Source: Darksidea phi (Eukaryota; Ascomycota; Dothideomycetes; Pleosporales; Lentitheciaceae). Taken from it: DNA of 64,000 nucleotides. How positions within the stretch are numbered: position 1 is the stretch's first letter; each line of letters opens with the position of its first letter. The DNA is taken from positions 248,001 through 312,000 of the forward strand of contig JASJFT010000029.1 in the NCBI GenBank assembly GCA_030770425.1, in the 5' to 3' direction. The notes under the pieces were generated by a model. It saw only the letters and a program-made list of their open reading frames with translations. It was not told the DNA's origin and did not search any database. Positions 8,893 to 38,240 of the stretch are shown in pieces. The translations under genes and the position numbers were made by a program.

Positions 8893-8902
8893 NNNNNNNN
8901 NN
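8893..8902. other. Assembly gap (10 N)
   Basis: Ten N characters mark a scaffold gap of unknown true size. It is flanked on the right by C-homopolymer runs, which probably caused the assembly to break. Confidence 0.99.
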
Positions 8903-30005: not shown

Positions 30006-31683
30006 TTATTTTGGAGCCAACTCCACTCCAATCCGGTCAAGAATTTCGGCGAAGTTGACGTTGTGAGTGTCGCATTCCGTCATGACAATGTCCTTCACCC
30101 ATGGACCTCTCGGTTTGAAGGCAGCCTTGAATGGGAGTGGCTTCGTTACGAGGCCATCAGTGGCAGCCATAGGATCCACGGTAAATGGCTCCCCAGTTTC
30201 TGACAGGCCCGGCTCGATGTCGAATGCCCATAGGACTTGAGCAATGGTAATCCATAGGACATTGCGTGCGACATGCCGTCCGGGGCAGAGTCGTCTTCCA
30301 TAGCCAAAACCTACTGTCGGGAGTTCTCTGAGCCCACTGGAGGTGCTCTGGGTCCCCTGCCCCGGGCTCTCAGACGGAAGCCATCTTTCGGGCTCGAATG
30401 CTTCTACGTTCGAACCGAAGACTTCTTCCTCTCGTGTCATCGACCAATGATTCGGTATCACGACCGAGTTTGCCGGAATTTTGTATCCTTTGTAGCTGCT
30501 CTCCACTTTTGTAAAGTGGGGGACGCCAGCGGCGCCAGCAGGTCGCCATCGAAGGAGCTCCTCAACAATCGCGTCGATATACAGCAGCTTTTGTCGGTCC
30601 GCGAAGTTGGGCAGCCTTTTTCGTCCAACCACGGAGTCGAGATAATTCTGGGCTTTAGCTATGAAACCCTGATTCGACGTAATGCACGCAACCACGAACC
30701 ACATCAGGGTTTCGGTGCTAGCATCTAGAGCGGCGTCCGCCATGATACCCACGTCAAGGGCAAGCTCCTCAATGGACATGTCGATTGCCTCGTTGTCCAA
30801 TGTCTTTTTCATGTGCTTAGAGAAGTTCCAGCCACTAGCACCGTACCCTTGCTGCAGATTTCCGACGTGCAGGGCGCGCTGTCGCCCCCAATGTTGCTCA
30901 GCTTCGGCTTTCCAGGGGGCTAGGAAGGCAGGGAGGTTGTTCAACACGGGGAGTGAGTCGACAAGGTACTTTCCGACCTGGGCCAGCTGATCAAACTCAT
31001 GGTTGACGGAGTGGGCAGCAAGAAGCACAGGGTCTGATGCAGTTTTAAGACGGAATCCGTAGAATAGCGCGTAGATGATGCTGGCCGTGGTGCGCTCAAA
31101 GTGGCCATGGCAATTGCCTCCAGAGCCTCCGGCGTTGTTGAGAAGGTCGTACAGCAGCTGCTTTGACTCGAGTTCCTGGAATGGAAGGTATGCACTGGCT
31201 GCTCGCATGCTCAGCACGGGGCTTTCCAGCTTCTGGTGCAACCTGAAGCGCTCGTCATATGGTCTTAGTAGCATGTGCATGCCTTTCAGGGCCAGCTCAG
31301 CGGCCACCTAGAAGGCAAATACACGTCAGCAGCCATCTTACGAGAGTTGCCCGGCGGTTAAAAGAACGTACGACAAATCGTGGGCGGTCCGAGAAAGTCG
31401 CACCCCGCTTGGCGAGGAGGTCGTGGGCTGCAGCCGACGTGGACAAGACAATGACGGGTTGGCCCAACATGTTCAGGTGCATGATGGGCCCGTACGTCTT
31501 ACTCCAGGCGTGATATTGCAGCCATGGATGCGATTTTGGTGCCTGGTGGACATTTCCGATAATAGGAAGGGCAGGAGGGCCCGGGGGTAGAGGCAGAGAC
31601 GATTTTGCCGCATACGCTCGGAAAAGGTACAAGGATAGAAGCGAGGCGAGGAAGACGGCAGCGTAAAGTGCTAGCGAAGCCAT
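30006..31683 (-). CDS. Cytochrome P450 monooxygenase
   Basis: A 537-residue microsomal class II P450. Exon 1 (31683-31372) encodes a membrane anchor (ALYAAVFLASLLSLYLF), the proline-rich hinge PLPPGPPALPIIGN and the SKTYGPIMHLNMLGQPVIV strand. A 64-bp intron (GTACGT...CTAG) precedes exon 2 (31307-30006). Exon 2 holds the I-helix region (ADAALDASTETLMWF), ExxR in EELLRWRP (about residues 354-357), the PERW motif (FEPERWLP) and the heme loop FGYGRRLCPGRHVA with the axial Cys near residue 445. The framework resembles fungal secondary-metabolism P450s of the OrdA/CYP64 type, but I do not assign a CYP family. It is divergent from the lyase-prenyltransferase gene across 573 bp, so the two are probably co-regulated and act in one pathway, with this enzyme oxidising the prenylated product (inference). 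Confidence 0.93.
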
Positions 31684-32256
31684 TGTGGGTCAAATGGTGT
31701 AGAAAGTGGAACGGAGTGCAATCGAGTGAGATGAGAAGGAATCGAGTCGGCAGAGGGTGGGGGTAATTGAGTTCCGGACGAAAGTGTTGGGCAGGAATAC
31801 CGGTGCAGGAGGCATGATCAGTGCGGACTCGGTGCACAGCATGGGTTCTTCTTACCCGCAGCCTCTGCCGCAGCCCTCGTCGCCCCGCCGCCTACGCCGC
31901 AAGCCCTCGTCTAGGCGCCGTTACACACGGTCTATGCGTTTACCTTGGCATTGCTACATCCCTACCGCCGGTAAGCGACTCAATAGGCGCTTCGGTCCCC
32001 GGCCCCCTGCAGTTAGCCGCATCTGTCGAGTACCCATTTTTTGGCCAAATTGAAGCCAGCAACGGCTCAGATCATGCGGAGTCGCTGCTGTTGGCATTGC
32101 TAACTACTTTCTCAACTTGCCCCTCGCGGCTGGCTACTAATGGTTTATAAATGCTCGCTAGCCGCGTATGAGCTTGTGTTTTCCCCTGTCCGTGCTAACA
32201 TCTCTACATTGATCTTTCTTAGAAGCCAGTCCGCTACAGCAAGTTCGCATTAAAAT
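31684..32256. promoter_or_regulatory. Shared divergent promoter of the P450 and lyase-prenyltransferase genes
   Basis: The 573 bp between the start codons at 31683 (minus) and 32257 (plus) must contain both promoters. It is GC-rich on the P450 side (CGCCGCCTACGCCGC) and includes spaced CGG/CCG triplets of the kind Zn2Cys6 regulators can bind. No single operator can be named with confidence. The head-to-head layout itself suggests common control. Confidence 0.5.
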
Positions 32257-35142
32257 ATGAGTGTCCTGGCAGCAACGAATACTCCTCCACCACCCTCGCA
32301 TAGTGCTGTGGTGGTGAGGTCTCTGCTGGCAGTGAAGCCCGAGGAGCGTGAACAAATCCTCAAAGATGTCGAGTACAACATATTCGCCTTCCCGGCTGGA
32401 CTCCTCACCTGCGATTATCTCTCGGATTCTGGCACCTCGGCCATGACAGACACGCAGTGGGCTGCCCGTAAGTTTTCCGCGACTAACACCGACAGATGCC
32501 CCAGCTCGACTTACTAGCTTCTTTCTTGTTCTTCTAAAAAGACCCTGTATTAATCTATGACGCAGTGATGCGAGGAGACGAAAGCTACGGCCGAAATTGG
32601 GGATATTACTGCTTGCTGGACACTTTCCGAGACATTTTCGAGCGTGGCAACAACCCCCAACATGCCTTCCAAGGCATCATTACAGGCATGATTGACAGCG
32701 AATACTACCGAAACAAGCTCCTCGTATCCTCCCGAGACGGCTTCGTCAACGGGGGACCTCACCAGCTTGAGCGTCCAAACTTCTTCATTGTGCCGCAGGG
32801 GCGCTGCGCCGAGGCCCTTCTCTTCTCTACCATGAGCAGTATGATTGCCGAAGGAGCACCAGGAAAAGCTTCGCCTGCAATTATCAGCAATGGCTTCTTC
32901 GACACAACAGGCGCCAATGCTGCCGTCGTTGGCTTTGAGCTCCAGACCTTTACTCAACCAGGCTTGAGCGACGCATTCCCCCAGGAGCTTGTTGGGAAAA
33001 AGAACTATTTCAAAGGTAACCTGGATGTAGCGGCGACAGAAGCCTACCTGGATCGACACCCAGGCCACGTTGCCATGATCTTGATGACCATCACAAATAA
33101 CTGGGCCGCTGCCCAACCCGTCTCGATGGCCAACATCAGGAATACGGCAGCACTAGCCAAGCGCAAAGAGATTCCATTCTTCTTCGATGCCTGTCGATTT
33201 GCAGAGAACGCCTTCTTCATCCACGAGTATGAAGAGGGCTATGCCAACAAGTCGATTGCCGAAATCGTTCAAGAAATGTTCTCATATGCTGAAGGCTTCA
33301 CTATATCTTTGAAGAAAGATGGGCTTTCAAACATGGGAGGCGTGCTATGCTTCCGAGACAAGGGAATGTTCACTCAGAGATACGAGGGCATAGGCCTTCG
33401 TTTGAAGGAACGGCAAATTCTAGCCTATGGAAATGATTCCTACGGTGGCAGTAAGTCTTCTTTCTTCAATTGAAGCGATTATTTCTCTCTGAAAAAGAAT
33501 GTTTCTGCCATTTCAGGACGTTGATAACTAATTATAATTATCAGTGAGTGGCCGCGATCTCATGACAGCTGTAATGGGTCTCTACGAGGTCACAAAAGAG
33601 ACCTATCTCCGTAACCGCATCGGACAGGTTCAATATTTCGCTCAAAAACTCCAGTCCAACGGGCTATCCGTTATCCTGCCCCCAGGAGGGCACGCTGTCT
33701 ATCTCGAAATGGAGGAATTCTTCTTTGGCTGCGACAGGAAGCCGGATGACTTCGCCTCAGTTGGTTTCACCATCGAGCTGATCAAAGACTTCGGCATCCG
33801 CGCTGCAGAAGCGGGCCCTTTCGGGTGGGAGTGGGACAAGAAGTCGCCAGAGGAGCGCAAAAAGATTCCAAACCTTGTCCGATTTGCCGTCCCACGCCAT
33901 GTTCAATCCGAAGAACATATCAACTACACAGTTGCGGCCATTAAATTGCTGCACAGCAGAAGGCACACGATTCCAAATGTGGAAATAGCAAGGGGAAAGG
34001 ACATGAGACTCCGGCACTTTTCAAGTGGCCTGAGACCCATCCCAGTGACCCAAAGCATCTCCGGTAGCTACATAGACGAGGCTACCAAGCAATTGTCACG
34101 TCTTTCCCAGGCCATCAATCTGGATCCGGCGGTGAAAGAACAGCTAATCAAGGCTTTGACGCTATCAGGGGGCGAATTTGGTCAAAGGCCAGTACCCAAA
34201 CAGCTCGATCCCTCAGCATGGATCTCGAACGTCAGCAACGATAATGCATTCTACGAGTACTCCGTGGCACTGGACCAGAAGACCGGAGATGCCGAACTCC
34301 GCTTTCTCATAGAAGCTCAAGCAGACGGCAACAGGCTGACCAAAATGCAAGAGAGCGCAGTCCGCCTAAACCATGAGATCGCAAAGAACTACAGCTCAAC
34401 CGTATCACTCGACCGTATGAATGATATCCAAGACCTCTTCCTGCCTGCCCAACCTGAAGGCATGTTTGCCGCATGGCACAGCTGTGCCGCCACCAAAGCA
34501 GGACCGGAATGGAAGATCTACCTCAACCCCTGCGCAACGGGCCCGCAGCAAGCCTCCTCAGTAGCCCGCGAGGCATTCGAGCGTCTCGGCCTAGCCAGTG
34601 CATGGCAGCTCCTGGCCAGCATCATGACACCCGACGACCCCGTGCTCTACTTCTCCCTCGACCTATCCCCGCACCACGTCCACTCTCGCATCAAAATCTA
34701 CATCGCACATCCAAACGCCACCGCCTCAACTGTTGCCCAAAAGCACACCCAGATCTGCCCCAACGCCTGCGCTTACTCCATCCAACAATTCTGCGCCTCC
34801 ATGGCCGGCGGCTCACTGGGCCCGTACACGGCAAAGCCGCTGTTATCCTGCTTCGCCTTCACGACCGAGGCGCCTGATCACCCGGTCAGCACTGTGCATT
34901 TCCCCGTCGTGGCGTACGCGGATAATGATGCGGAGGTCCAACGCCGCATGCAGCATTACATCAGTGTGGCGAGTCTCCCGCCGGCTTATCAACAGCGTTA
35001 TGCGAAGATTATAAGCGCGGTCCAGCGGAGGCCGCTTGACAAGGGGCGCGGGATACACGCTTGGGTTAGCTTGAAGCAGAACGGGAAGGGGAAGAGATCA
35101 AATACTTTTTATCTGTCGCCGGAATTGTTCGGGCCGTTGTGA
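32257..35142 (+). CDS. Tryptophanase-type lyase fused to DMATS-type aromatic prenyltransferase
   Basis: Exons 32257-32467, 32566-33450 and 33545-35142 (introns 98 and 94 bp) encode 897 residues. Residues 1 to about 530 are a complete PLP-dependent beta-eliminating lyase of the tryptophanase/tyrosine phenol-lyase family: LLTCDYLSDSGTSAMTDTQW, GDESYGRN, the pyridine-binding Asp in FFDACRFAENAFFI, the Schiff-base Lys in SLKKDGLSNMGG (about residue 321), YGNDSYGGMSGRD and the family C-terminus MRLRHFSSGLRPI. From about 535 to the end is an ABBA-fold indole/aromatic prenyltransferase: KEQLIKALTLSGGEFG, WKIYLNPCATGP, FERLGLASAW, YFSLDLSPHHVHSRIKIYIA, TVHFPVVAY and YLSPELFG. The lyase would release indole or phenol with pyruvate and ammonia; the second domain would prenylate the freed ring. 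The fusion keeps both domains at near normal length, closest in style to short bacterial DMATS enzymes. Which amino acid is used is undecided. Confidence 0.9.
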
Positions 35143-36519: not shown

Positions 36520-37236
36520 CTATTCCTCCACTTTTCCCAGCATCAAATCGACAGCCTGCCTCCCCTCTGTGCTATATCCCTCGACAAACCGATCCCCGAA
36601 TCCACTCACCCAACTTAAGTAAGTAACCTCGGGTTTCTCCCTGCAGAAGCCACACATGAGCTCTTTGATATGCCCCTTCAAACCCCTCCTCGGGAACTCC
36701 TCTGCAATCTTATTCAGCTCATCTTGGTCGACCTGCACGAGTGCCTCGCCAATAGCCTGTTTCCCGTACTCAGCGCCAAACAGTTCAACCGCAATGCCCG
36801 CATTTGTAAGTGCAACTTCTGGCTCCTTGTGTGCAGCAACGATTGGGTAGGTGTGCAGCGCTATGCTGTCCCACACTAGCTGGATACGGTGTTTGTCCCA
36901 ATCCGCTGCATGACCCTCGCGGAGGATGAAGTCTCGTGCGGCGTTTGCGCCGTCGACTTCGAAAATCTTATCTTGCGAGCGGAACTCAGGGCTATGACTC
37001 CAACCAAGATCATGAAGGATTGTTGCAACGGAGAATGCTTCGAGATCGATGGCTTCACGCTGGGCTGGTGGGAGACGCGAGATGATGAGCGTTCCGACAA
37101 CCCATGATCGTGCGACGTGCCTATAGCCGATAGGATCCATGGAGTTCTCAGCAAGCTTAAGGGCCTTGTTGACGAGAGAAGTAGAGAGCACGGTGACGCC
37201 GGCTACAGTGCGCGTTGGAAGCTGTTGAGTGGACAT
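36520..37236 (-). CDS. HD-domain hydrolase, cyanamide hydratase-like
   Basis: A 238-residue single-exon protein with an HD metal-binding domain: His in YRHVARSW, the HD pair in TILHDLGW and a later Asp region (VDQDELNKIA). Resemblance is to the fungal HD proteins related to cyanamide hydratase (Ddi2/Ddi3 of yeast), which hydrate cyanamide to urea through a zinc site. Family features seen are LEAFSVATILHDLGWS, FEVDGANAARDFI and LVWDSIALHTYP. Its true substrate could be another nitrile-like compound. It is the next intact gene after the lyase-prenyltransferase, 1.4 kb away on the opposite strand, but membership in that cluster is only a possibility. Confidence 0.85.
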   Translation of the reverse strand: MSTQQLPTRTVAGVTVLSTSLVNKALKLAENSMDPIGYRHVARSWVVGTLIISRLPPAQREAIDLEAFSVATILHDLGWSHSPEFRSQDKIFEVDGANAARDFILREGHAADWDKHRIQLVWDSIALHTYPIVAAHKEPEVALTNAGIAVELFGAEYGKQAIGEALVQVDQDELNKIAEEFPRRGLKGHIKELMCGFCREKPEVTYLSWVSGFGDRFVEGYSTEGRQAVDLMLGKVEE

Positions 37237-38240
37237 TGTAATGATCGTTTCGCGACGGATGTGATGAGAAGACTTTGTTGTAGAAACTGCGAGTTGTAGT
37301 TTACTGTTGCTTGCATAATATCCATCGCGACATCTTTATACCACAGATCTTTCATTTCAGCGGAAGTCGTCCGCTCCATTCCCTTATGATCACTATTCAA
37401 TCTTCTCGACGCCGCCTTTCGTAGAGTGCCTGAATGCTTCAACACCACCCTCGCAACCAATCATTGGCAGAGAGGCTACTGATACTTACTGATTCTGAGG
37501 GGTAGATCGGCTCGGAGACCATATTACAGCCGCTCCGAGCGGCGGTCGAACTTCCGATGCTGACAGGCCGACACGGAACGCGCCGTTTCAGGACGGAATG
37601 TCGCCGAATGATGGCTGACTTCTTTCTCCAGACTCGTTACGTCTGTCTCTGACCAGCAAAATTTTTGGCGGAACACTTCGACCAATCATGCCCCGCCGTT
37701 CCATCTAACCGAATATGTTGTGGAACTCAACAGCAACATATATCTCTCGCATCATTCGCAGCTCTCCTTTCCTCCAGCATTGTCGCAAGTTATGGCCTGA
37801 TTCAGTGCTCAGCTCCCCTGGCCCGGAACTGGCGGTCTGCAAGGAGCAGCCAATGGGGTCCTTGCGGCAGCGTTTCCATAAGCTTAAGAGTTGCACAGCG
37901 TGCGGAGATGGGGATGGAGAGCCGATAAGAAAAGCGCGTCGGTTGTGGAAGAAAACGCTCACTCTTTCTACTTCCTTTCCTTCTCTCTCTGTCTTCCCCC
38001 GAACTTTCTGTCGCAATTACACTATTTGAGAGTCCGGCATTTTTTGAAATATATAAGAGTGTGATCACGTGACTGGCACATTCACATACGTCCGAGCTTC
38101 GGCAACCGAAACAATCAGGATCCAACAATCCCGGATCAGACGAGCTCAACATAAAAAGCGGTGTCAACATAAATCCACAAGGTCATTTTCATCACATCCT
38201 TTTGAATTCCTTGGAACTCATCCATTTATAAACGATTGCA
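37237..38240. other. Divergent intergenic region
   Basis: About 1 kb between the divergent starts of the HD-domain gene and the small gene at 38241. Two overlapping frames of 103-122 codons on opposite strands (37705-38170) show no family marks. C/T-rich tracts near 37965-38000 look like promoter DNA. Confidence 0.4.

Follow-up and report, generated by a model that had tools for sequence, protein, structure and literature searches.

A single-chain fusion of a tryptophan indole-lyase-type enzyme and a DMATS-type prenyltransferase in Darksidea phi and other fungi, a probable route to prenylated indoles

Does a single gene of the fungus Darksidea phi join an aromatic amino acid lyase to an aromatic prenyltransferase, and what might such a protein make? 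The question is raised by a stretch of 64,000 nucleotides (the window; contig JASJFT010000029.1 of assembly GCA_030770425.1, positions 248,001 to 312,000 of the forward strand), in which an initial annotation, made from the letters alone, had proposed a fusion of a tryptophanase/tyrosine phenol-lyase-type enzyme with a DMATS-type domain. We were able to show that this lyase-DMATS fusion is real and is one protein. The spliced gene at 32257-35142 (+ strand) contains two GT–AG introns and encodes a product of 897 aa without internal stop, in which all six motifs named by the initial annotation were found. The end of intron 1 was placed at 32565, since relatives lack the 8 residues that the alternative acceptor at 32541 would add after QWAA (905 aa); at this boundary the aligned relatives read QWAALMRGDESYG or near variants, one example being MTDVQWAALMRGDESYGRNWGY. 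The hmmscan that had been suggested as a check matched both expected families in the 905-aa version, PF01212 Beta_elim_lyase at residues 53-503 (E 1.2e-47, 163 bits, cut-off 27) and PF11991 Trp_DMAT at residues 584-847 (E 1e-10, 42 bits), and a Pfam scan of the same version with E up to 1 revealed no family beyond these two. The junction of the two domains lies inside a single open exon of 534 codons (33538-35139), so that no splice is needed to join them and, as claimed, no stop separates them.

The fusion is widespread in fungi and occurs in dozens of them. Searches of about 5.8 billion proteins yielded 102 proteins with the DMATS half as query and 6551 with the lyase half, of which the best 120 were listed. 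Among 168 proteins from both searches, 74 carry both halves, 56 the lyase only and 38 the DMATS only, many of the last being metagenome proteins of 520-590 aa, a length close to that of a single exon of this gene. A database search for other two-domain proteins had been recommended, and the 74 recovered show that any hint of rarity in the initial annotation was wrong. The hosts include Massariosphaeria (87% identity in the DMATS half), Lentithecium, Corynespora, Xylaria and relatives, Diaporthe, Colletotrichum and Metarhizium, as well as Podospora anserina (PODANS_4_1090) and relatives and the basidiomycete Mycena pura, a range that we take to extend from Dothideomycetes through to one Mycena. 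Database entries called merely 'tryptophanase' include such fusions (e.g., P0089, P0095). In an aligned set of 72 fusions, window included, the pairwise distances in the lyase half correlate with those in the DMATS half (r 0.86, a value reached in 0 of 2000 permutations), which indicates that the two halves travelled together; mean identity is 69% in the lyase half and 47% in the DMATS half. The interdomain spacer, according to a rough motif measure, was readable in 44 of the 72 and comprises exactly 11 residues in 33 and 12-14 in 5, with 6 outliers. Since both halves recur in so many of the retrieved proteins, and since the lysine that binds pyridoxal phosphate (PLP) is kept in 72/72 and the catalytic Glu of the DMATS half in 69/72 aligned fusions, the fusion is not due to chance.

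In its sequence the lyase half looks like a tryptophan indole-lyase, not like a tyrosine phenol-lyase (TPL). Its top subfamily model was the tryptophanase NF009709 (458.8 bits, cut-off 285), and the equivalog models of tryptophanase (TIGR02617, 259.1 vs 825.8 bits) and of TPL (TIGR02618, 253 vs 720.7 bits) were both matched under their cut-offs. According to the available excerpt of PMC5805759, the two enzymes are discriminated by Asp137, Phe304, Val394, Ile396 and His463 in indole-lyase and Thr124, Met288, Met379, Arg381 and Phe448 in phenol-lyase. Residues were mapped with E. coli TnaA and Pantoea TPL as controls, the latter reading T, M, M, R and F at the five sites; the window reads Asp183, Asn360, Ala453, Ala455 and His523, retaining Asp and His and having no Arg at the Arg381 site. 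The Asn at the Phe304 site is common to the long-type rows examined. In the aligned fusions the Ile396 site is occupied by Ala, Ser or Thr in 70/72, and the Val394 site by Ala in 39/72 and by Phe in 12/72. Val stands in place of His523 in 9/74 fusions. Among these nine are the Colletotrichum fusions P0089, P0088, P0094 and P0115, in which the loss of the indole-lyase His suggests a changed lyase chemistry in that lineage.

The DMATS half is closest to bacterial prenyltransferases of free L-tryptophan. A phmmer search of the domain against the PDB retrieved 6zrx (E 7.1e-33), 7w8u (E 8.1e-30) and PriB (4.9e-27). The structure model of a relative, P0002, displays a prenyltransferase (PT)-barrel fold with the C-terminal half modelled at high confidence, and P0002 is 25-30% identical across about 340 residues to PriB, 5-DMATS SCO7467, 6-DMATS, IptA and CymD, which share the fold of the fusion DMATS but are stand-alone enzymes. 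For TleC, the catalytic Glu and pyrophosphate site are given as Glu106, Arg119, Lys187, Arg248, Tyr252, Tyr317, Arg378 and Tyr382 (PMC4786772, available excerpt); by a correspondence made through motifs, not by aligning TleC, and covering all of these sites except Tyr317, the window domain holds E603, R618, K689, R747, Y751 and Y888 but Ser884 at the Arg378 site; K749 is present as well. Besides the catalytic Glu, Tyr751 is conserved in 68 and Lys689 in 67 of the 72 fusions, followed by Lys at K749 (61) and Arg at R747 (57), and bacterial DMATS rows share this Glu and most of the Lys, Arg and Tyr positions. The canonical fungal DMATS, several of which are encoded in this genome, belong to the same PF11991 family but come out as a separate clade in the tree, a joint grouping not being rejected (see below); the window domain reaches 42 bits to PF11991, and the four strongest matches in the rest of this genome reach 254-331. 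Other fusions of DMATS domains were also seen: with an iron-containing redox domain (PF14518) at L046:6462-8630, L047:7051-8862 and L048:6761-8677 in a search of 195 genomes, and, in the same PF11991-PF14518 combination, in the metagenome protein P0099. The metagenome DMATS protein P0100 additionally matches PF14028, a lantibiotic dehydratase C-terminal family.

Our preferred interpretation, to which we assign a probability of about 0.6, is that of a bifunctional enzyme of secondary metabolism by which L-tryptophan would be prenylated and then cleaved, a cytochrome P450 completing the product. In such a pathway the C-terminal DMATS domain would first attach the dimethylallyl group of dimethylallyl diphosphate to free L-tryptophan, at its indole ring. 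The resulting prenyl-tryptophan would be cleaved by the PLP-dependent indole-lyase domain at the N-terminus, with release of prenylindole, pyruvate and ammonia, and oxidation of the prenylindole would fall to the neighbouring, divergently oriented P450. The order prenylation-then-cleavage is proposed because the DMATS half is akin to free-L-tryptophan enzymes and because of the lyase pocket, whose ring side would, from residue size, be widened; the closest enzymes allow a guess of position 5 or 6 for the prenyl group. This order is our inference, and so are the function of the P450, the end product and any channelling; the protein probably makes prenylated indoles via a route known so far from separate bacterial genes. 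In the available parts of PMC3617294, tryptophan is the substrate that IptA of actinomycete type A clusters prenylates, and the authors propose that the tryptophanase present accounts for 6-prenylindole. The type A cluster described there (IptA and tryptophanase, Streptomyces sp. SN-593) combines the same two activities that in fungi are fused in one gene, and its product class is a prenylindole (6-dimethylallylindole-3-carbaldehyde), as proposed for the fungal fusion; unlike the fusion, it comprises two separate genes and a short-type tryptophanase. Together with the loci L021 and L052, which include a P450 like the fungal locus, it bears out the statement of the initial annotation that tryptophanase genes lie beside indole prenyltransferase genes in actinomycetes.

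The P450 gene and the fusion gene are divergent (Table 1), and the region between them could possibly be a shared promoter. The best three homologues of the P450 by E-value, from Massariosphaeria (88%), Lentithecium (82%) and Biscogniauxia (75%), all come from hosts of close fusions. For a broader comparison, the best 120 of 379 P450 matches were set against 109 fusion or DMATS rows, sharing of a contig being inferred from equal contig size and the same source. By this measure, 13 of the 120 listed P450 homologues lie on a contig of identical size to that bearing a same-source fusion; 10 of these 13 fall among the 45 P450s of at least 59% identity, and 8 of the 13 contigs are below 500 kb. In Monosporascus the locus tags of fusion and P450 are two apart (DL768_007193 and _007195). 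Some of these P450s are named fumitremorgin C synthase by their sources, a name that we judge to be transferred. On the other side of the fusion an HD-domain protein is encoded at 36520-37335 (-), which has Pfam HD and cyanamide-hydratase matches, both below cut-off, and for which a PDB search gave no match. The assembly has a gap, a run of 10 N, at 8893-8902 of the window.

Table 1. Coordinates of the fusion gene and the adjoining P450 gene (positions in the window).
Feature	Position	Strand	Basis
Cytochrome P450, 537 aa, intron 31308-31371, FGYGRRLCPG haem motif	30006..31683	-	PF00067 on both exons; gene model; homologues
Intergenic region P450-fusion, 573 bp, divergent	31684..32256	.	gene models
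Exon 1 of fusion gene, lyase N-terminus	32257..32467	+	GT at 32468-32469; alignment to relatives through ...QWAA
Intron 1, 98 nt, GT-AG	32468..32565	+	acceptor 32565, not 32541; 8 extra residues absent from relatives
Exon 2 of fusion gene, lyase core with Asp183 and PLP Lys321	32566..33450	+	gene model, residue mapping
Intron 2, 94 nt, GT-AG	33451..33544	+	frame resumes YGGMSGRD, same in relatives
Exon 3: lyase C-terminus (His523), junction near 34027, DMATS-type domain, stop codon	33545..35142	+	stop-free frame, PF11991, phmmer to PDB, structure model of relative P0002
Putative DMATS-type tryptophan prenyltransferase domain, 371 aa	34027..35139	+	phmmer to PDB DMATS entries; E603, R618, K689, R747, K749, Y751 and Y888 present

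Several observations weigh against a prenyl-tryptophan pathway at this locus. A small residue at the Ile396 site is frequent in lyase-only rows too, and is thus not peculiar to fusions, and the Phe at the Val394 site of 12/72 fusions is bulky; the pocket argument is therefore no more than suggestive. In the DMATS half, the putative TleC Arg378 site is Arg in 1/72 fusions (two gaps; Ser884 in the window) and in 28/28 bacterial and metagenome DMATS rows, the bacterial rows retaining a C-terminal Arg that 71/72 fusions lack or gap, and R747 and K749 are Arg and Lys in just 57 and 61 of the 72 fusions, respectively. As for the P450, the matching of equal-sized contigs is an indirect measure, co-location means little on those contigs (5 of the 13) that are 0.7-7 Mb long, and the 35 remaining close P450s (at least 59% identity) have no fusion on an equal-sized contig among the rows listed, which may be a product of the 90% identity clustering or true absence. 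The rarity of the Arg378 equivalent, together with the faster divergence of the DMATS half and the dispersal of lyase-only rows among the fusions, would also fit a catalytically altered half, with the DMATS domain using another aromatic acceptor or donor or being the degenerate partner of an active tryptophanase. We regard this as improbable in view of the conservation of the catalytic Glu (69/72), Tyr751 (68/72) and Lys689 (67/72) and of the PT fold modelled at high confidence in the C-terminal half.

The initial annotation had implied the reverse order, in which the lyase half frees volatile indole from L-tryptophan and hands it directly to the DMATS half for prenylation. Such an arrangement agrees with the retained PLP Lys, Tyr, Asp and His of indole-lyases and with the general knowledge that a fusion is a classic set-up for a volatile intermediate. 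It is nevertheless doubtful, and we consider it unlikely, as the closest solved prenyltransferases (PriB, IptA, 5-DMATS, CymD) are L-tryptophan enzymes, the bacterial sequence of steps starts with prenylation (PMC3617294, available parts) and the ring pocket appears enlarged in many fusions. The other product envisaged, a prenylphenol made by a TPL and the prenyltransferase, has the shared fold family and the sub-threshold TIGR02618 match in its favour. The window has Asp, His and no Arg where TPL has Thr124, Phe448 and Arg381, closer to indole-lyase, and Pantoea TPL is placed among the short enzymes and not in the fungal clade, which makes the prenylphenol very improbable; a TPL identity is contradicted by D183, N360, A453, A455 and H523. 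Least probable of all is an artefact of the gene model, with two neighbouring genes read as one, given a junction within a stop-free exon and both halves in 74/168 retrieved proteins.

Where, then, does the prenylindole-forming pair proposed here come from? Bacterial DMATS loci were collected from a genome-contig search (one locus), from the phylum to which the genome with this locus belongs (10 of 195 genomes searched) and from 9 plasmid records (7 used). A tryptophanase was present in the flanks of 4 of the 25 distinct loci scanned (L016/L036, L038, L021, L052). These neighbours are 30-36% identical to the window lyase, archaeal long-type rows 55-56%. In the lyase trees (23 fusions in the first, 11 in the second), the fungal lyases group with some metagenome rows and one liverwort row in a single clade (100/99) adjoining the long type; the tryptophanases encoded beside DMATS genes sit in the other main clade. 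The long-type prokaryotic tryptophanases (Promethearchaeota and others; Butyricicoccus 8sl7) are sister to the fungal lyases and have the same Asp, Asn and His, but are without DMATS half and often carry Cys or Leu where most fusions carry Ala or Ser. Approximately unbiased (AU) tests rejected a grouping of the fungal lyases with all four bacterial DMATS-neighbour tryptophanases (p 1.9e-52) and with the two of Streptomyces (p 4.5e-43; the SN-593 tryptophanase is not in the tree). Lyase-only rows are dispersed among the fusions, a pattern suggestive of recurrent loss of the prenyltransferase half, though truncated gene models may account for some of these rows; P0155 grouped among the fungal rows. 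As metagenome proteins (e.g., P0125, which branches first) and a liverwort protein are among the lyase-only rows, the label 'fungal' is partly assumed for this clade. The liverwort protein, P0109 of Riccia sorocarpa, shares 67% identity with the window lyase half; its gene lies on a contig of 52 Mb and may represent a plant acquisition or an assembly problem.

In the DMATS trees (21 of 75 fusions, window included; the long row L005 excluded from the final tree), the DMATS halves of the 21 fusions form one clade (97/100), and joining them with the canonical DMATS of this genome was not rejected (AU test, p 0.52). Transfer of an actinomycete operon to fungi followed by fusion is contradicted by the lyase tree and the AU tests. 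Because descent from the four tested bacterial tryptophanases is rejected, the pairing of lyase with prenyltransferase probably arose more than once. In the Myxococcaceae-type loci L016/L036 and L038 a DMATS likewise stands beside a tryptophanase, but as separate genes on opposite strands, with a short-type tryptophanase and a DMATS that has a long extra N-terminal region. At L016:7167-14650, in a Myxococcaceae metagenome-assembled genome, DMATS, tryptophanase, a styrene-monooxygenase-like FAD enzyme and a P450 are clustered, possibly as a bacterial prenylindole pathway. We see roughly even odds for the wider proposal that fungi independently built a single-chain 'prenylindole synthase' from a long-type tryptophanase and a bacterial-like L-tryptophan prenyltransferase, with the lyase re-tuned for prenyl-tryptophan, that together with the P450 it would constitute an unrecognised pathway converging on the actinomycete one, and that many database 'fungal tryptophanases' (Colletotrichum, Podospora, Metarhizium) would be such enzymes.

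Full-text searches of open-access papers revealed no description of the fungal fusion in the titles or abstracts of the matches listed, and among open-access papers with 'tryptophanase' and 'prenyltransferase' or 'dimethylallyl' just PMC3617294 was on topic by title or abstract. Hence the initial annotation holds, within the open-access papers searched, in stating that no fungal single-chain version has been characterised, as it does for the fusion and its actinomycete precedent; its phenol-lyase or phenol reading and the suggested rarity do not stand, and its lyase-first order has become doubtful. In the available text of PMC8537960, tnaA of Colletotrichum, Podospora and Metarhizium is treated as a plain, horizontally acquired tryptophanase, and 'prenyl' and 'dimethylallyl' are absent from the main text. 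If our interpretation is true, many fungal genes labelled tryptophanase, perhaps these among them, would be biosynthetic bifunctional enzymes, and an additional route to prenylindoles would exist, with the fusion as a ready one-protein biocatalyst candidate. The pairing of tryptophanase and tryptophan prenyltransferase in unrelated lineages suggests that both steps belong together.
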